This document shows positions 4,529 to 19,581 of a stretch of 38,835 nt of DNA, in pieces; the first letter of the stretch is position 1, and every line of letters begins with the position of its first letter. The stretch is from a bacterium CG_4_9_14_3_um_filter_65_15. Its GTDB lineage: Bacteria > Krumholzibacteriota > Krumholzibacteriia > LZORAL124-64-63. The translations under genes and the position numbers were made by a program. The stretch covers positions 209,305 through 248,139 of the forward strand of contig PFVX01000035.1 of NCBI GenBank assembly GCA_002790835.1, in the 5' to 3' direction. Under the pieces are notes generated by a model. It did no database searches, was not told the DNA's origin, and saw only the letters and a program-made list of their open reading frames with translations.

Positions 4529-5461
4529 CTAGTAGGTAACCGACAGGCTGACCCGGTGGACGTATCCCAGGGGCCCCATGTCCACGGCGCTATAGTCACC
4601 CTGCAGACGCGTGGCCGTACCCGTAGTCAGGGCGGCACCAAACCCGAAGGCAAGGCCGTCGGTGTCGTAGTTGATGTTGTAGCCGCCCCGCACGAAGAAC
4701 ATCTCGCTCAAGGCGAACTCCCCGCCCACGTTGGCGCGCTCCAGGTTATCCGAAGGATGCTGGAACTCAAAGGCCAGGGTTAAGCGCTGGTTGTCGGTCT
4801 TGTAGGGGTTGAAGCTGGTTCCAACCTTGAAGGCCACCGGCAACTTGGATTCCCGCTCGTCGAAGGTGAACTTGCTGCCCAGGTTCTGGATGGTCATGCC
4901 CAGCTTGAGATCCTTGATCCCGATGCGGTACATGATGCCGAAGTCCAGGTAACCCGTATTGACCGCAACCTCGGCCAGGGCCATATGCAGATAGTTCACG
5001 GTCATGCCGGCAGAGAACTTGTCGGTGAAGAAGCGGGAATAGCACAAGCCGAAGGTGGTCGTCCCGGAGTCGAAAGTCTCCCCTGTTCCCTCGGGATTGT
5101 AGGCGGTCCGCACCAACTGCGGATCCATCCAGTAGGATCGCACGGAAAACGCGAAAGTCCCCGGAATGGAACGCGGGTTGAAAGCCAGGATGGCGGTGCT
5201 CAACTTGGTATCAGCCGCCCAGGCCACATGGTTGACGGAGACCTCGTTGCCGACCACGTTGACCAGCCCGCCCGGGTTCCAGAAGGCCGCCGAGGCATCG
5301 TCGGCCAACCCGACGAAAGCCGAGCCCATCCCCGTTGCACGGGCACTGACCCCGATCTTCAACTCCTGACCCCCGAAGGTGCCTACCTTCGCAAAACCGG
5401 CGGCCCCGGCCAGGGAAGGCACTGCCAGCAACACGGCGATCAGAATCGCGATGCGTTTCAT
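4529..5461 (-). CDS. PorV/PorQ-family outer-membrane barrel protein
   Basis: A 310-residue predicted outer-membrane beta-barrel. A signal peptide (1-21, ending SLAGAAG) precedes the family's N-terminal block: KIGVSARATGMGSAFVG, then ADDASAAFWNPGGL, the typical PorV/PorQ (UPF0164-type) pattern. The rest consists of alternating beta strands, ending in an aromatic residue (SLSVTY). ATG at 5461 has GGAGG five bases upstream; the frame extends further but without a signal peptide at its start. In Bacteroidetes, PorV is the shuttle that brings cargo with C-terminal sorting domains to the type IX secretion machinery. Here the neighbour (5524-8379) carries such a domain, so a cargo-shuttle pairing is likely but inferred. 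No gliding or type IX core genes are in the window. Confidence 0.85.
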   Translation of the reverse strand: MKRIAILIAVLLAVPSLAGAAGFAKVGTFGGQELKIGVSARATGMGSAFVGLADDASAAFWNPGGLVNVVGNEVSVNHVAWAADTKLSTAILAFNPRSIPGTFAFSVRSYWMDPQLVRTAYNPEGTGETFDSGTTTFGLCYSRFFTDKFSAGMTVNYLHMALAEVAVNTGYLDFGIMYRIGIKDLKLGMTIQNLGSKFTFDERESKLPVAFKVGTSFNPYKTDNQRLTLAFEFQHPSDNLERANVGGEFALSEMFFVRGGYNINYDTDGLAFGFGAALTTGTATRLQGDYSAVDMGPLGYVHRVSLSVTY

Positions 5462-5523
5462 GGAAACCTCCAGATCCGTCCTCCGACGGAGTTGACGACT
5501 ATCTGCCCCAAACAAGATCCTAC

Positions 5524-8379
5524 CTACCTGACGACGACGAACTTGCCGACAAAGTCGTCAAAGCGATCGTCGTCCGATTGCACGGAGTACAGATAGACCC
5601 CGCTGACGATTTCCTGACCGTTCCGACTCATGAGATTCCAGCTCAAATGGCCGCTCCCGGTCGTACCGTCATGGTCAATGGTCTGCACGAGGTCGCCACT
5701 CACCGTGAAGATACTGATGGTGTTATGGGCCTCGGGAAGATTGGTGAAAGTCACCCTGACACCGGTGGGGTCGTCCCCGTTGGGATAGAGCTGTTGGTAA
5801 TCAGCCAGTGCATCCCGTGTGGCGGGATTCGGGTAGACATAGATGTTCGCCCCGAACTTGGCCCGCTCATCCGGAGTCTGGCTCTTGGTGCCGGGCACCG
5901 CATTGGTGAAAGAAGAGGTGGGATCACCGGCCAAGCCCGCGCCGGTCGGGAACCGGTTCACATGCCCGTCGATGATGGTTCCTGCGGGCGACATGGCGTG
6001 ATCCGAGGCGGTCACCGAGTAGAAGTATATGAACCCGTTGTGGATGTCCCGGTCGATATACTCGAAGTACTCGGTGGAATGCTTCTCCTTGATGCCCTCG
6101 CCGACATTCGGCGCCCGATAGGTAACGGCGAAGAAGGTATCCAGCACGTCCGGGAATGTCTCCCACGGCGCAAGACCACTGTATTCGGGTAATTGTCGTC
6201 CTTCGGGATCCCGCAAATCGGGCCGCGTGACGAGTTCGTTCTCGGGGTCGTTGTCCACAACCACCTGCATGGCCTCGGCCAAACCCTCGAACTGCGGATC
6301 GTCCAGGACCCGCGGCCGGTAGGAAATGGCATCCAGCCCCGTGTTGGTGCCCAGAGGGATGGTGTCCACGTAGGTCTGGTTACCGACGTCGCGGTAGGTG
6401 ATGAAACTGTCGACCACGTCATACTCTGCGATCATCTGCCAGAGTGAATTCTCGGGGCCGTTGACGATCGACGAGCCAAAGGGACGATCCCAGTTGTCGG
6501 CTCTCCAGATGCGGTAGGATTCGAAATCGATCTTCTGCAACCGGATATCCTTGGTGATCATGCTCACGTCATCCCAAAAGACATGCACGCGGCCGTCGGC
6601 AGGCCACAAGCGCAGCCCCGGGGGCGGCGGCGCCATTCCCACCAGCCAGTGGATCTGGGATTCGTTGCCGTCGATGCCCGTGCAACCCTTTTTGTCTTCC
6701 TCACTGGCATCGGGATCGTTGCACTTCCACTTGGATTCCTCGAAATCTGCGGACTCACACCAGTGCCCAAGGTGCCTCGCGCACTCGAAGCAGTTATCCA
6801 GGTTGAACATGGAACAATTCTTGGTCGTTCCGTTGACATCGATCCTGAAGACTTCCGCATCCGTGATCCGGGGCTGCGAGGTCGCCCAATTGGGATCCAT
6901 GCAGCTGGTGTCACCAAAATCCGGGGACAGCTGATCGAATTTTCCCGGCGGGAAATCCTCTCGGCACAATATGGTTTCCCGACCCAGGGAACCGGGATTG
7001 ACCTCTCCCCCGGGGGTCTCCTGGGGGCCCAGCTTGTCCAAATAGATGCCGTACCAGGTCAGGGCCGCCTCGGCGCAGTTGGCCAGCAGCCCGTCCAACC
7101 CCGCGCCCATGACCATACCGACCTGGAAACTGAGCTGGTCGCTGGGGGACAGCACGGAAAACGGACCGGCCGAAACCAGGAAACGGAAATCGTTTTGCTT
7201 GCCGTCCTGGGTGTCCCCGTCCCACTCATCGAGGGGAGCACTCAAAAGCTGGTAGGCCTCATCGTCGTTGGTCGGGTCTCCGCCCTGGGCAAAGTTCTGC
7301 TGCCCGGAAAACCTCTGGAAGGTCCGCATACCCACCCTGGTCGGAGCCTTGAACCCGGTCGGGTCGATGTCGTGCCCGAGGAACAGGATACCGTAGTATC
7401 CGGGCAGCGGAGCGCTCTCGGCCCCGTCGTACATGTAACCGACCTGAATGGGGACATAGCTGCCGTCCGACGCCAGGACCATGCCGGGGTTTCCGTGGTT
7501 GGTCGGCCAGGACCCGGCCATGTCGTCACCCGCGCCGCCGCTGGTGCCGCGCGCAGCGATGTCGGCATCGGCGTAGAATCCGATGTAGACGTTTTCGATC
7601 TCCGTCACGCCGATATTCTTGATGGTGTACTCGAAGCCCACGAAGTCGTCGACCTGGTCGTTTTCCCACTGGTAGGTCTGCCGGACGATCTGGAGGTTCA
7701 AGGGCGTATGATCCGGGTGATCCTCCCGCGCCAGGCTCGTGTTGTCGTACATGGTGGCAACCATCATCTGGTTGCCGATCTGGCCGAAATCCTCGTCGAT
7801 CAGGCCGTCGCCGTCATCATCGTGCCCGTTGAGGATTTCCTCGTCGATGAGACCGTCATCGTCGTCATCCGGATTGGGACCCGGCTCCCGGTTGCCGCTG
7901 GCATCGGTGTTTCCCGCGGGTCGCAACAGCGCACCGGCCTGGGCCTCGTAGATCGTCGATTCCACTTCGTCCTTGGGGTAGATCTCGCTGATGTAATCCG
8001 CGCCACCGGCGGTCACCAGGCGCTCGCCCAGGACAACACCCCCGACCCAGAGGCCCGCCGCCCACAGGTATTCGTCGCCCGATCCGGCCGGCCACTGGCA
8101 GGACGGGGCACCGGAAAAACGGCGAGCGCTGGAGTACATCGACCCGATGAGGCCGAAGTTGGTCACGTTGATCTGCACTTCCCCCACGTTCATGACGAAT
8201 TTGCCGTTGAGGGTGAAAGCGCCGTTGGGGTTATAGGTGATCCCGGGCGACGAACCCGCCCCCTCCATCACGGCACCGGCCGGCACGGCGAGGCAAACCG
8301 CAAGCAGGACCGCCGCCGTCATCCCGGCGAAGATTCCTCCCTGGCGCCATTTCACTTGGCTTACCTTGGCTTGCACCAT
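5524..8379 (-). CDS. Large secreted protein with type IX-like C-terminal sorting domain
   Basis: A 951-residue protein of unknown function. A signal peptide (about 15-37) is followed by a long beta-rich body. Residues about 169-198 hold two tandem acidic loops (DDDDDGLIDEE and DDDGDGLIDED) of the thrombospondin type 3 / EF-loop kind, likely calcium sites. A cysteine-rich patch lies near 460-570. The last 80 residues form a FlgD-like / type A sorting domain: VRVTFTNLPEAHNTISIF, then GVYLYSVQS and a basic C-terminal end. The start is taken as ATG 8379, with AAGGA upstream; GTG at 8394 in frame would add five residues. It sits between the receptor and the PorV-like gene, so it is probably exported and anchored at the cell surface. 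Substrate or partner is unknown. Confidence 0.82.
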   Translation of the reverse strand: MVQAKVSQVKWRQGGIFAGMTAAVLLAVCLAVPAGAVMEGAGSSPGITYNPNGAFTLNGKFVMNVGEVQINVTNFGLIGSMYSSARRFSGAPSCQWPAGSGDEYLWAAGLWVGGVVLGERLVTAGGADYISEIYPKDEVESTIYEAQAGALLRPAGNTDASGNREPGPNPDDDDDGLIDEEILNGHDDDGDGLIDEDFGQIGNQMMVATMYDNTSLAREDHPDHTPLNLQIVRQTYQWENDQVDDFVGFEYTIKNIGVTEIENVYIGFYADADIAARGTSGGAGDDMAGSWPTNHGNPGMVLASDGSYVPIQVGYMYDGAESAPLPGYYGILFLGHDIDPTGFKAPTRVGMRTFQRFSGQQNFAQGGDPTNDDEAYQLLSAPLDEWDGDTQDGKQNDFRFLVSAGPFSVLSPSDQLSFQVGMVMGAGLDGLLANCAEAALTWYGIYLDKLGPQETPGGEVNPGSLGRETILCREDFPPGKFDQLSPDFGDTSCMDPNWATSQPRITDAEVFRIDVNGTTKNCSMFNLDNCFECARHLGHWCESADFEESKWKCNDPDASEEDKKGCTGIDGNESQIHWLVGMAPPPPGLRLWPADGRVHVFWDDVSMITKDIRLQKIDFESYRIWRADNWDRPFGSSIVNGPENSLWQMIAEYDVVDSFITYRDVGNQTYVDTIPLGTNTGLDAISYRPRVLDDPQFEGLAEAMQVVVDNDPENELVTRPDLRDPEGRQLPEYSGLAPWETFPDVLDTFFAVTYRAPNVGEGIKEKHSTEYFEYIDRDIHNGFIYFYSVTASDHAMSPAGTIIDGHVNRFPTGAGLAGDPTSSFTNAVPGTKSQTPDERAKFGANIYVYPNPATRDALADYQQLYPNGDDPTGVRVTFTNLPEAHNTISIFTVSGDLVQTIDHDGTTGSGHLSWNLMSRNGQEIVSGVYLYSVQSDDDRFDDFVGKFVVVR

Positions 8380-8425
8380 CGTTATCCTTTCCACCCCGGC
8401 CCCAGCGCCGGGTCATCAGCCCCTG

Positions 8426-13308: not shown

Positions 13309-14155
13309 GGGCGCCCTTTCCGCGCCGGGGATCCAGCCGCTCGCGCAGCCCGTCTCCCAGCAGGTTGTAACCCACCACGGTCAGGGTGATGGCCAGCCCC
13401 GGGAACGTCACCAGCCACCAACCCTCCAGGAGGTGATTCCGCCCCTGTTGGATCATCTGGCCCCAGCTGACGACGGGGTCCTGGACTCCCAGCCCCAGGA
13501 AGCTGAGAAAGGACTCGGCGAGGATGGCGCCGCCCACCCGCAAGGCGGCGGCAACGATGACGGTGGGCATCAGGTTCGGCAGCACGTGACGCCAGGCGAT
13601 TCGCCAGGGCGAGAGGCCCAGCCCGCGGGCGGCGGCGACGAAATCGCGCTCCCGCAGACCGAGGGCCTCGGCCCGCACCAGCCTGGCCACGGGCATCCAG
13701 CCGGTCAACCCCAGCACCAGGATGATCAGTCCCGCCGACGGCGCGGACAGGGAGATCAGCAACAGGACCAGGAAGATGCGCGGGAATGCCATGAAAGCGT
13801 CGGTGATTAGCATCAGCGCCCGGTCCATGCCTCGCGCCCCGAGCCCGGCGGCCAAGCCCACCCCCACCCCGAGGACCAAGGCAACCAGGACCGACATCCA
13901 GCCGATCACCAGGGAGATGCGACTGCCCAGAATGAGGCGTGACAGGACGTCCCGACCCAGCACGTCGGTCCCCAGGGGATGACCCGAGCCGGGCGGAGCC
14001 AACCCCAGGGTGCTCATCGCCGCAGGATCCCGCGGCACGAGCCAGGGCGCCGCCACCGCGACCAGCAGCAGGGCGCCACAGATGACCATGCCCACGGTCA
14101 GGACCGGGCTGGACCACCGCCCCCTCTTGCCCCTGCCCTGCCCGCCGGGAGTCAT
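13301..14155 (-). CDS. ABC transporter permease, DppC/OppC type
   Basis: A 284-residue inner-membrane permease. A basic N-terminus precedes the first helix (about 18-38) and the DppC-type segment PGSGHPLGTDVLGRDVLSR. The binding-protein-dependent transport domain follows, with an EAA-type cytoplasmic loop (RARGL equivalents in FVAAARGLGLSPWRIAWRH). The frame is open much further upstream, but ATG at 14155 overlaps the stop of the other permease in an ATGA arrangement, which is typical of coupled translation and fits the family's length. It pairs with the DppB-type permease to form the membrane channel and with the double ATPase downstream. Confidence 0.93.
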   Translation of the reverse strand: MTPGGQGRGKRGRWSSPVLTVGMVICGALLLVAVAAPWLVPRDPAAMSTLGLAPPGSGHPLGTDVLGRDVLSRLILGSRISLVIGWMSVLVALVLGVGVGLAAGLGARGMDRALMLITDAFMAFPRIFLVLLLISLSAPSAGLIILVLGLTGWMPVARLVRAEALGLRERDFVAAARGLGLSPWRIAWRHVLPNLMPTVIVAAALRVGGAILAESFLSFLGLGVQDPVVSWGQMIQQGRNHLLEGWWLVTFPGLAITLTVVGYNLLGDGLRERLDPRRGKGARV

Positions 14156-15159
14156 CGCCCGACCTCCCCATCCGCTGCGATCCGGATGCGGGGATCCAGC
14201 AGGTGGTAACCGATATCGGCGAGCAGCGAACCGGTCACGACCAGCATGGCGGCCAGGGAGGTTGTGGCCATGATCAGCGGATAGTCCCGACTCCAGATCG
14301 CATCCACCGTAACCCTTCCCATGCCCGGCCACCCGAATACCGATTCCACCACCACGGCTCCCCCCAGGAGGAAGGGAAGGTGCAGACCCATCTGGGTCAC
14401 CAGAGGCAGCAGGGCGTTGCGCAGGGCGTGACGCCACAATACGAGCCGTTCGGGAATCCCCCGGGCGCGGGCGGTCAGGATGTAATCCTGGTCCAGGGCC
14501 TCTTCCAGGGATGCCCGCAGGAACCGGGCGGTGCCCATGTACGAAACCAGGGCCAGGACCCCGGCGGGCAGGACCAGGTGTCGGCACAGGTCCAGGAAAC
14601 CCGTCCACGGCCCCATGAAGGCCGCGTCCGGAGCGTGCATGCCGCCGAGAGGAAACCAGCCGGCCTTGGCCCCGAGGACCAGGATGGCCATCAACCCCAG
14701 CCAGAACGAGGGCAGGGAATAGAGGGTCAGCCCGGTCAGATTGAGCCAACGTTCGAGCGCCCTCCCGCGCCCCACAGCCATGCCCATCCCCACGACCAGC
14801 GCCAGGAGCAGGTGCGCCAGGTAGGCGGTCACCGTCAGCACCAGGGTCGCCGGTACGGTCTCGGCCAGGATGTCGCGAACGGGCCGGTGCTGGCTGATGC
14901 TGTTGCCCCAGTCGCCCTGCAGCGCCGCTCCGGCCCAGTGCAGGTACTGGCCGGCCAGAGAACCGTCCAGACCCAGTTGTTGCCGCATAAGGGTCTGGTC
15001 GGCTCGGGACATCCCTTCGCTCACCATCTGGTCCAGGGGATCCCCGGGCGCCAGCCGCACGATCCAGAACACCGCGGACATCAGCACCACCAGCAGCAAA
15101 GCCGTCGTGGCGATCCGTTGCAGGACCCAGATTCCCAGGTTTTCGGGAGAATGGCTCAT
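14152..15159 (-). CDS. ABC transporter permease, DppB/OppB type
   Basis: A 335-residue permease of the DppB family. It starts with the family's first helix and the conserved loop (VFWIVRLAPGDPLDQMV), and has about six membrane helices and an EAA loop (QDYILTARARGIPERLV). The periplasmic stretch includes the LGLDGSLAGQYLHW segment common to DppB proteins. The start codon has only a weak ribosome site. It is the first gene of the three-gene importer operon, with a candidate promoter at 15227-15256 about 70 bases upstream. There is no substrate-binding protein gene on either side: the gene beyond is divergent and unrelated. Confidence 0.93.
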   Translation of the reverse strand: MSHSPENLGIWVLQRIATTALLLVVLMSAVFWIVRLAPGDPLDQMVSEGMSRADQTLMRQQLGLDGSLAGQYLHWAGAALQGDWGNSISQHRPVRDILAETVPATLVLTVTAYLAHLLLALVVGMGMAVGRGRALERWLNLTGLTLYSLPSFWLGLMAILVLGAKAGWFPLGGMHAPDAAFMGPWTGFLDLCRHLVLPAGVLALVSYMGTARFLRASLEEALDQDYILTARARGIPERLVLWRHALRNALLPLVTQMGLHLPFLLGGAVVVESVFGWPGMGRVTVDAIWSRDYPLIMATTSLAAMLVVTGSLLADIGYHLLDPRIRIAADGEVGR

Positions 15160-15226
15160 GGCGCGGGCTGCGGCCTTCCTGATGGTCCGTCGGCGGGGAC
15201 CGGGTGTTCCGGTACCGAGGCTGTTG

Positions 15227-15256
15227 ATAGTAGTGAGCCCGGGCGGTGGCGGTCAA
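15227..15256 (-). promoter_or_regulatory. Candidate promoter for the ABC importer operon
   Basis: On the minus strand, TTGACC (15251-15256), 18 bases, then TACTAT (15227-15232). The -35 matches 5 of 6 consensus bases, the -10 matches 4 of 6. The first inverted repeat of this region lies 20 bases upstream of the -35, well placed for an activator or operator. Confidence 0.55.
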
Positions 15257-15275
15257 GGTCGGGTGCGGGTCTATG

Positions 15276-15313
15276 CAGGATGCACCTCGGGCAGGCGAAC
15301 CCGTTGCATCCTG
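15276..15313. repeat. 9-base inverted repeat, candidate operator
   Basis: CAGGATGCA at 15276-15284 and TGCATCCTG at 15305-15313 are perfect reverse complements, 20 bases apart. Inside, CGGG (15288-15291) can pair with CCCG (15300-15303), so the transcript could also fold into one interrupted hairpin. It lies between divergent genes, just upstream of the ABC promoter. Confidence 0.5.
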
Positions 15314-15391
15314 AGCGGCCTTGCGGTTCCTCGTCGTTTCCGCTCATGCCCTCCCGACTTCATCCTTCCCTTTAGTGCCGCGCCAATCCTC

Positions 15392-15433
15392 CGATGAAGA
15401 ACCCGCACCCAGGATGGAATGGTTCTTCCATCG
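15392..15433. repeat. 12-base imperfect inverted repeat
   Basis: CGATGAAGAACC (15392-15403) is the reverse complement of GGTTCTTCCATCG (15421-15433) except for one extra base; the loop is 17 bases. It lies about 85 bases upstream of the lipoprotein gene, in its presumed leader or promoter. No T-run follows on either strand. Confidence 0.5.
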
Positions 15434-15517
15434 CGAAAGAAATGCAGCCCGCAAGGCGGGTGATTCGCACGTCTCGAACAAATCCCCGGTTCCGCACAGG
15501 GAAGAAACGGAAACCAG

Positions 15518-17584
15518 TTGAATCAAGGGACAGCGAAAACCAGCGGCCCCGGCCGCCCCCGCACCATCGCCAAGGGGATGATTCTGACCGGCTGGAGCGC
15601 GGCCGCGTTGATCCTCGGCGGCTGCGACCTCGCCAAACCCGAACTGCCCAGTTTCGACACCCGCCTGACCCTCCCCCTGGGTACGGAGGTCCTGACGGTG
15701 GCCGAAGCCGTGGCGGATGATTCCACCCTGGTGACCGATGGAGAGGGCGGGATCAGCTTCGTGACAGGCGGCCAGCCGCAGACGATCGACCTGGGGATCG
15801 GCATGGAAGTCCAGATTCCCGCCCAGACGATCCGTCAGACCGTCGGTGTCTTTGCGGTCGCTTCACCGGCGCCGTTGACGGTTGACGAATCCCTGGCCGA
15901 AGTCTGGCCCGAGGCGGTCACCCTCGCGGGATCCACGACCCTCGTTCCGCAATTCGACTTCACCGTGGACGCCGGCGACCTGGCCCTCTCCGGTATCGAA
16001 GCGGTGGCTCTCGCAAGCGGCGTGATCACCTGCGCGGTGACCAGCAGCTGGCCCGTCGGCATCAGCGGCAGCGGCCAGGGCGATCCGCTGTTGATGGTCC
16101 TGCGCAACGGAGGAACCGGGGCCGACCTGATGACCATCTCCCTGGGTCCGGTCAGCGCCGGAGGATCGACCCGGACCGAAGTCTCCCTGGCCGGGATGAC
16201 CCTGCCGTCCCGGCTCGAGGTGAGCATCGTCGGTCACGGGGACGGCGCCCTCTCCCCGGTGCCCATCGCCGGCGACGAGTCCCTCTCCGTCGAATTGTCC
16301 TTTTCCGAACTGTCCGCCACCAGCGCCACCGCAGCGGTCGAGGCTCAAACCTTCGACCTGGAATTCACGGCCGATCTGAGCGACGGTGACGCCATCACCC
16401 ACGCCGCCGTCGGCACCGGTTCCCTATCCTTCTACCTCCGCAACGAATTGCCCCTGGACGTGGCGGTGGATCTGGCCTGGGACCGGGTGATCAGGCAGGA
16501 CGGAACGGCGTTGACCACTTCAGCCGTGGTCCCGGCGGCCGGTTCCGTCGTCGTCACCGTCCCGTTTTCGGCCGGCGAGATCGTCGGCACCGGCGATCCG
16601 ATGACGACCTTGACCGCCACGGCACAAGTCAGAACCTCGGGCAGCGGGGGTGAAACCGTCGCCTTGTCCTCCACCCAGGGGTTGGCGGTCGACCTCGCGC
16701 CCGGGGTTCTTTCCTTCACCGAGATCAGCGGCTGTTTCGCCCCCGACAGCTGGGACCTCGACCCTGTCACCGAACAGATCTCCTATCCCGACGACAGCGA
16801 GGGCCTGACCTTCACGCAGGCCGCCCTGGTCATCGAGCTGGGCAACACCGCGGACATGGGAGCCGACCTCGACCTGCGGTTGACCGGAGTCCCCGACCAG
16901 GGCGAGCCGGTCTATCTGGAGGTCCACGAATTCGTCGACCCGGCCGGGGACGGAAGCGGAAAAACCATCCTGATTCTGGACGAGAACAACAGCGAACTGG
17001 TGGATTTCCTGAACACCCGGCCGCAGACCATTTCCCTGGGCGGAACCGCCGGCGTGGCCGATGGAGCCAATTGCGGAACCCTCAGGTCAAGCGACACGCT
17101 GGAAATCTCCTGGCGCTTGACGGTCCCGGTGGTGGTGACCCTGGAGGGCACGAGCCTCGCTGGGGACCCCGAACCCCTGGAGTTGGACGCCGACCTGCAA
17201 TCGGCCATCTCCGACCATGCCGGCGCCGCCGAATTGCAGGCCACCGTCACCAACCACCTGCCCGCCGGATTGCAGCTGTGGGTCCTGGTTGCGGACCGGC
17301 CCGAGGACCTTCCCGGCAACCCCTTGTTGACGGTGGGACCCTTGACCGTGGACGCCGCCCTGATCGACCCCTTTACCGGCGAGGTTGCCGCCAGCGTCGT
17401 CAGCCGGCCCAGCGCCTCGCTGACGGCCGAGGAATCCCGTCTCTTCGGACGCCCCGGCCTGCACACCTTGTATCGGGTCCGGATTCCGGCCAGTGACGGG
17501 ATCCCGGTGAGGTTGATGAGCACGGACTTCCTGGAGGTCTCCGGCTTGCTGGCCATGGACCTGCGCATCGACGAGGAGCTTTGA
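15518..17584 (+). CDS. Unrecognised 688-residue secreted lipoprotein
   Basis: I do not recognise a named family. Seen directly: a basic N-terminus, a hydrophobic stretch and a lipobox ending LGGC (Cys36), so it is most likely a lipoprotein. The mature part opens with PELPSFDTRLTLPLGTEV and is otherwise a long run of predicted beta strands, rich in Val, Thr, Asp, Ala and Gly, without obvious catalytic motifs. Only a few cysteines occur. The TTG start at 15518 is uncertain; ATG at 15578 would give a compact lipoprotein signal but has a poorly spaced ribosome site. It is separated by one base from the outer-membrane barrel gene downstream, so the two are almost certainly co-translated. From memory, lipoproteins with this kind of opening recur in FCB-type genomes, but I cannot verify that here. 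Probable location: outer membrane, face unknown. Confidence 0.75.
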   Translation: MNQGTAKTSGPGRPRTIAKGMILTGWSAAALILGGCDLAKPELPSFDTRLTLPLGTEVLTVAEAVADDSTLVTDGEGGISFVTGGQPQTIDLGIGMEVQIPAQTIRQTVGVFAVASPAPLTVDESLAEVWPEAVTLAGSTTLVPQFDFTVDAGDLALSGIEAVALASGVITCAVTSSWPVGISGSGQGDPLLMVLRNGGTGADLMTISLGPVSAGGSTRTEVSLAGMTLPSRLEVSIVGHGDGALSPVPIAGDESLSVELSFSELSATSATAAVEAQTFDLEFTADLSDGDAITHAAVGTGSLSFYLRNELPLDVAVDLAWDRVIRQDGTALTTSAVVPAAGSVVVTVPFSAGEIVGTGDPMTTLTATAQVRTSGSGGETVALSSTQGLAVDLAPGVLSFTEISGCFAPDSWDLDPVTEQISYPDDSEGLTFTQAALVIELGNTADMGADLDLRLTGVPDQGEPVYLEVHEFVDPAGDGSGKTILILDENNSELVDFLNTRPQTISLGGTAGVADGANCGTLRSSDTLEISWRLTVPVVVTLEGTSLAGDPEPLELDADLQSAISDHAGAAELQATVTNHLPAGLQLWVLVADRPEDLPGNPLLTVGPLTVDAALIDPFTGEVAASVVSRPSASLTAEESRLFGRPGLHTLYRVRIPASDGIPVRLMSTDFLEVSGLLAMDLRIDEEL

Positions 17585-17585
17585 G

Positions 17586-18836
17586 ATGCCGTCGCGTTCC
17601 ACCCGGTTCATCCGCTGCATCCCGGTTCTTCTTGTTCTGGCAACCGGCGCCTCCTCCTCCGTCCGGGCCCAGGGGCAGGTCCAGGCCTGGGGCATGGGTG
17701 GAGCCGTGACCGCCTCTGCGCGGGGTCTGGCCGCGGTGCAGTACAACCCCGCCAACCTGGCCCTGTCAGGCGGAACGGACATCGGCCTGGCATCCGCCGC
17801 GGCGGTGGTCGGGAACAACTCCCTGAGCCTGGACCGTTACAACGAGATCACCGGCAGTTATCTCGACACCGCCGACAAGGACCGACTGCTGGCGGACATC
17901 CCCGCCGGAGGATTCAACCTGAATGCCGACGCCCGGGTCTCCCTGGCCGGGATCCGCAGCGGCAACTTCGCCTTCAGCGTGGGCGCCCGGGGCCACGGTC
18001 GGGGCAACCTGGACCACGACTTTTTCGATCTGCTGCTCTACGGGAATTCCGTCGATCAGACGGTGGACTTCAGCAACACCCGGGGCGGCGGATACGCCGT
18101 GGGCACCGCGACGGTAAGCTGGGGTACGGCCCTGCACCGCGGCGAGAGGGACCTGGTGGCAGCCGGCATCAACCTGCACTACCTGCACGGCCTGTACGAA
18201 CTCCACATCGCCAAGGCCGGCGGCACCCTCGACACGCGCATATCCGGCCTGGACGGGAACGCCTACGTGGACGCCGTCAGCGCCGAGGGCGGCAAGGGCT
18301 ACGGTGTGGATCTGGGGCTGGCCTGGCAGCGCGGAACCTGGACCCTGGGAATGGCCGCCGAAAACGTGACCGGGAGCATCGCCTGGGACAGCGGCCTGCA
18401 GGAGGATTCCTATTCGGTGACCGCGACGCAGGTCACCCTGCTGGACGGAGACCTGGAAACGGCGGTTCTGGACCAGCACTTGACCGCTCCCGCCGACCCC
18501 TATGACACCCGGTTACCCCGCACCTTGCGGGCGGGACTGGCACGGACTTCGGGCCCGTTTACCGTCGCGGTCGACCTGGCCCGCGAAGACGGGTACACCG
18601 CCGGACAGACCGCCAGCACCAGCGTGGCCTGGGGGGCCGAATGGAGACTGGTATCCTGGTTCACCCCCCGGGTGGGCCTGCGTCACGATGACGCCATGGG
18701 TACCGGAGGATCCGTCGGGCTGGCGGTCGGAATCGGCCCCTGGGTCATCGACGCCGCAGCCATGACCGTGGGCGGATTGAATCCCGGCAGCGCCCAGGGG
18801 TTCGGCGCCGCGGCGGGCACCCACCTGGCCTTCTGA
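17586..18836 (+). CDS. Outer-membrane barrel protein, DUF5723/PorV-like
   Basis: A 416-residue predicted outer-membrane barrel. A signal peptide (about 1-30, ending SVRAQG) is followed by GMGGAVTASARGLAAV and QYNPANLAL, the short-helix plus NPA pattern found in PorV, TraF-like and DUF5723 proteins. It then runs as alternating strands to an aromatic C-terminal residue (GTHLAF), as expected for BAM-assembled barrels. The start ATG lies one base after the stop of the lipoprotein gene, with GAGGAG upstream inside that gene. Pairing of a large lipoprotein with a barrel suggests a two-part surface complex, perhaps for display or export; this is inference. The DUF5723 name is a best guess from the N-terminal pattern. 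Confidence 0.75.
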   Translation: MPSRSTRFIRCIPVLLVLATGASSSVRAQGQVQAWGMGGAVTASARGLAAVQYNPANLALSGGTDIGLASAAAVVGNNSLSLDRYNEITGSYLDTADKDRLLADIPAGGFNLNADARVSLAGIRSGNFAFSVGARGHGRGNLDHDFFDLLLYGNSVDQTVDFSNTRGGGYAVGTATVSWGTALHRGERDLVAAGINLHYLHGLYELHIAKAGGTLDTRISGLDGNAYVDAVSAEGGKGYGVDLGLAWQRGTWTLGMAAENVTGSIAWDSGLQEDSYSVTATQVTLLDGDLETAVLDQHLTAPADPYDTRLPRTLRAGLARTSGPFTVAVDLAREDGYTAGQTASTSVAWGAEWRLVSWFTPRVGLRHDDAMGTGGSVGLAVGIGPWVIDAAAMTVGGLNPGSAQGFGAAAGTHLAF

Positions 18837-18840
18837 AGTT

Positions 18841-19581
18841 TCAAATGGTTTCGCTGGTCGGCTCGAGATCGAGGGCGGCGGCGAAGGCCTGTGCCAGTTC
18901 ATCCCCCAGACGTTCCAGGTCGGCCGGTTCCAGGGTGCGTCCCAGCTGCTCCTGAAGGTCGGTGGTCCCGGCCTGCAGTTCCTCGCCCTGCTGCGCGCGG
19001 GCGGTCGGATCCAGATCCAGGTAATCCACCAACCGACGATGTTCCGGTCCCGCCAGGATGGAACCGTGCTGCAGGAACACCCCCCGCAGGCGGCGCTGGG
19101 CGCTGCCGACGAGCTTGCGGCCTCGGACGCGGATCTCGTGACGGCCGGCGCTGCGGAAACACACCGGGGACCGGGCGGCTTCCCTGCTCTCCCCCGACGA
19201 AACGTCCGCGTCGATCCCCAGCCCCGACAGGAAACGCAGCAAGGCGCGGTTGATGGTCATGTAGGCGTCGTGCAGGGAGCTTCCGAACAGCGGGCCCGGC
19301 GAGGTTCCGATCACGGCGTAGGTCAATTCGTGGGCGTGCAGGATGGCGCGGCCGCCGGTGGGCCGGCGCACCAGGTCGTAACCGGCGGCGGTGACGTCCG
19401 CCGCGGCAAAGGCTTCTTCCCGCTGGTTGTACCCCAGGGTGAGACAGGGAGGATTCCACTGGTAGATCCGCAGGATGGGGTCGTCGCCCGGCTGATGGGC
19501 GTGCAGCAGCGCCGTGTCACGCTCCATGTTCCAGTCGCCGGCACCGGATCCGTCCCGCAGGATGCGCAGCCGGCCGCTCAC
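18841..19581 (-). CDS. lipM: Lipoate/octanoate protein ligase family, LipM-like octanoyltransferase
   Basis: A 246-residue member of the biotin/lipoate protein ligase fold. Motifs: RRPTGGRAILH (72-82), HELTYAV, a Cys-Phe pair (Cys141), then GRKLVGSAQRR with Lys156 and LQHGSI. The Cys-Phe followed by GRKLVGSAQ is the LipM pattern, where the cysteine carries the octanoyl group from acyl carrier protein to GcvH; LplA ligases lack this cysteine. The start is GTG at 19581, four bases after the gcvPB stop. Its place at the end of the glycine cleavage operon, next to the H protein it would modify, supports LipM over a free lipoate ligase. Lipoyl synthase (LipA) is not in the window. Confidence 0.82.
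   Translation of the reverse strand: MSGRLRILRDGSGAGDWNMERDTALLHAHQPGDDPILRIYQWNPPCLTLGYNQREEAFAAADVTAAGYDLVRRPTGGRAILHAHELTYAVIGTSPGPLFGSSLHDAYMTINRALLRFLSGLGIDADVSSGESREAARSPVCFRSAGRHEIRVRGRKLVGSAQRRLRGVFLQHGSILAGPEHRRLVDYLDLDPTARAQQGEELQAGTTDLQEQLGRTLEPADLERLGDELAQAFAAALDLEPTSETI

Follow-up and report, generated by a model that had tools for sequence, protein, structure and literature searches.

A large lipoprotein and an outer-membrane barrel carrying the DUF5723 domain are always encoded side by side in Krumholzibacteriota, the phylum of the host genome, and they come and go together. This strict association suggests that the two proteins work together, and it is very probable that they form one functional unit. 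We read them as a two-gene outer-membrane unit in which a barrel of the FadL superfamily has a dedicated large lipoprotein partner, and assign this reading as a whole, transport included, a probability of about 0.4. To our knowledge, DUF5723 has no known function, and a full-text search found no literature on DUF5723 together with the outer membrane. A strict genetic partner offers a concrete handle on this domain.

The two genes lie on the forward strand of the window (the whole stretch of DNA that was analysed, 38,835 nucleotides), at 15518–17584 for the lipoprotein (688 residues) and 17586–18836 for the barrel (416 residues), which agrees with the reading frames proposed in an earlier, sequence-only reading. 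The TTG start codon of the lipoprotein was inferred from the position of the lipobox and places the signal peptide and lipobox (residues 1–36) at 15518–15625. At the junction the window reads TGAGATG, that is, the stop codon of the lipoprotein, a single G and the barrel ATG at 17586. The pair occupies a 3681-bp interval (15160–18840) between dppB (14152–15159) and lplA (18841–19581); both flanking genes are on the reverse strand, and the two-gene unit is isolated. The earlier proposal of translational coupling stood in part: it fits the one-base gap in the window, but the stop-to-start distance ranges from −4 to +80 bp in the 21 loci measured, and tight coupling is confined to some genomes. 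A GC-rich inverted repeat was seen by eye in the spacer of five loci (L052, L053, L057, L058 and L059); such repeats could lead to different levels of lipoprotein and barrel.

How strict is the association? We surveyed 80 genomes of the phylum, several of them incomplete, for profile matches to both proteins. The lipoprotein profile matched in 42 genomes. In 41 of these the barrel follows immediately downstream, on the contig and strand of the lipoprotein, its match starting 1–127 bp past the lipoprotein match; the 42nd carrier (G019) holds only a lipoprotein fragment of about 60 profile positions. Weak matches to the barrel profile occurred in nearly all 80 genomes, as expected because the barrel belongs to a PorV/FadL-like superfamily. 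Strong barrel matches (E 2.4e-17 or better) were found in 41/80 genomes, every one a lipoprotein carrier, and no strong barrel match without the lipoprotein was found in the 80 genomes. A Fisher test of this co-occurrence gave p 4e-22, a value to be taken as a description rather than a probability because the genomes are related. Wherever homologues of both genes were detected, in 41 genomes, they are thus neighbours, clearly the opposite of the rare adjacency that would have spoken against a joint complex. Since the pair recurs in 41 of the 80 genomes, the pairing is not due to chance. When only genomes at least 90% complete were considered, the lipoprotein was present in 27 of 46 and the pair absent in the other 19.

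Most loci read with their flanks share a common order: TonB receptor, ABC transporter, dppB, the pair, lplA, gcvT and uvrA. Five pair-less genomes (G004, G006, G009, G026 and G050) have their lplA and dppB matches only 79–231 bp apart, compared with the 3681 bp of the window. Because lplA adjoins dppB in these genomes, the pair behaves as a single cassette, and lipoprotein and barrel are gained or lost together, as a unit. Conversely, the pair is present without its usual neighbours at five loci (L042, L046, L047, L048 and L054), and the annotated flanking genes of L046, L048 and L054 are unrelated to one another. Both observations support the earlier view that the pair is separate from the receptor block to its left. 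The empty-site genomes also provide natural comparisons.

The two proteins also diverge in parallel. Their pairwise distances correlate with r 0.89–0.91, and the partial correlation was 0.72–0.82 after each of five syntenic control genes (18–23 genomes each); saturation of fast-evolving proteins could inflate these values. Neighbouring genes can show correlated divergence without contact.

As the sequence-only reading had stated, the lipoprotein belongs to no named family: searches of Pfam, NCBIfam and PADLOC returned no match. Its signal peptide carries a lipobox (LGGC) that ends in Cys36, and this cysteine is invariant in 29 aligned relatives. An AlphaFold model (mean pLDDT 87, pTM 0.59) gives confident domains in a less confident arrangement; it is nearly all beta strand and forms beta-sandwich domains, confirming the description of a beta-rich 688-residue protein with a lipobox. 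Residues 150–260 and 270–400 form an internal repeat (15965–16717; hhalign probability 98.3, E 2.3e-14), to which residues 540–688 give a weaker match (82–83%, hhalign). A profile search of solved structures yielded chance-level matches only. Among the best 50 fold matches, the nearest solved structure was BDI_1231 of Parabacteroides distasonis (4h3w, E 3.4e-10, probability 1.00). However, BDI_1231 has 312 residues against 688, shares 13% identity and is itself uncharacterised; a literature search returned nothing for BDI_1231 and only unrelated work for 4H3W.

We infer that the lipoprotein resides in the outer membrane or at the surface. Residue +2 after the lipobox cysteine is D or E in all members of its family (f1) that were listed, and G, S, T or V in more distant members. 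In E. coli, D or E at this position can hold a lipoprotein in the inner membrane, which counts against an outer-membrane location. Surface-exported lipoproteins of Bacteroidota carry an export signal of the C-X-K-(D/E)2-X type (PMC5080379). The window reads C-D-L-A-K-P-E-L-P and so lacks the K-(D/E)2 element of this Bacteroidota signal, which may not apply in Krumholzibacteriota. The N-terminal tail of the lipoprotein is conserved, with the pattern [DE]I..PE.P.F.

The barrel scores 53.2 bits against DUF5723 (PF18990; gathering cut-off 26.8), and the same domain was matched at E up to 0.001 in 31/31 barrel members, as well as in a control genome, Bacteroides ihuae. The NPA motif and aromatic C-terminus noted earlier are both there: the motif reads NPANL (residues 54–58), with P55 invariant and N54 and A56 at least 90% conserved in 31 relatives, and the protein ends in LAF. 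Modelled alone (mean pLDDT 85, pTM 0.79), the barrel matched the folds of FadL and TodX first, followed by BamG from three species (chains 9n2d_B, 9hiv_F and 9hjm_F among the matches) and PorV, with probability 1.00 and TM 0.37–0.53. Thus, the nearest folds of this NPA-bearing barrel are FadL/TodX-type channels for hydrophobic compounds (TM 0.43–0.53, rmsd 7–15), and the surface-display or export route suggested by the sequence-only reading finds no support. The low TM values count against a FadL-type assignment; identity to FadL and TodX is 10–15%, and the barrel has the DUF5723 rather than the Toluene_X profile. It further differs from them in having a large lipoprotein gene next door.

What could the unit do? 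A barrel of the FadL type would suggest movement of small hydrophobic molecules, and so strict a lipoprotein partner suggests capture, gating or stabilisation. Both proteins would lie in or at the outer membrane, bound to each other, and by analogy with the tail of BamH on BamG the [DE]I..PE.P.F tail of the lipoprotein may touch the barrel. The barrel would then move a small hydrophobic compound that the sandwich domains of the lipoprotein might capture or gate. Such a transport mechanism is our first choice for the pair, held tentatively and at somewhat less than even odds. A FadL-type barrel can also be an anchor for a lipoprotein, as BamG is for BamH (PMC12611786). If the two proteins described here bind, they would be a further case, next to BamG-BamH, of a FadL-type barrel partnered by a lipoprotein. 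A more specific version, in which lipoprotein and DUF5723 barrel form an obligate complex, a lineage-specific machine of BamG-BamH-like design whose different job is to take up a hydrophobic compound or deliver it to the surface, seems to us rather doubtful.

The resemblance to BamG-BamH could instead extend to function, with the barrel serving as a scaffold next to BamA while the lipoprotein forms a canopy on the surface and aids the folding of certain outer-membrane proteins. BamH is a lipoprotein anchored by BamG, itself a barrel of the FadL family (PMC12611786), the pair shares this composition, and BamG is among the fold matches of the barrel. However, BamG and BamH are described as essential, universal in Bacteroidota and conserved in six of another seven FCB phyla (PMC12611786), whereas the pair is patchy, being absent from those 19 of the 46 genomes at least 90% complete. 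Moreover, a sequence-profile search of the PDB with the barrel gave no BamG chain among the matches listed (E up to 10), and the genes of the pair are adjacent, whereas BamG and BamH have locus tags that lie apart, Fjoh_1412 and Fjoh_0823 (PMC12611786). We therefore regard an accessory role of this kind as unlikely. By sequence profile, the only solved protein matched below E 0.001 was PorV (6h3i_F, E 4.4e-05), the shuttle protein of type IX secretion. PorV-family proteins are abundant and SprA is found in 80/80 genomes of the phylum, so a PorV-like barrel could work with a lipoprotein that holds secreted proteins at the surface. This is less likely still: the barrel scores 23.1 bits against the curated PorV_fam cut-off of 90 (NF033709), FadL/TodX and BamG outrank PorV among its fold matches, and the pair, in 42 of the 80 genomes, does not track SprA.

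Distribution also speaks against a central part for the pair in type IX secretion or BAM: it is present in about half of the genomes, and SprA in all 80. The two genes might also be transcribed together yet encode outer-membrane proteins that are independent and do not interact. The −4 to +80 bp spacing, with an inverted repeat in some spacers, would suit this arrangement. On the other hand, across the 80 genomes no strong barrel match came without the lipoprotein, and the pair is also found again among unrelated neighbours; independence thus appears improbable, and a FadL-type barrel with a dedicated lipoprotein partner remains our preferred reading. As to the type IX system itself, a SprA-like translocon gene is found in genome G000 (contig C68, 32774–36694). 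The window itself encodes, within 4529–8394, a PorV-like protein that falls just under the cut-off of the PorV profile; it adjoins a 956-residue protein whose C terminus weakly matches FlgD_ig/type IX sorting domains.
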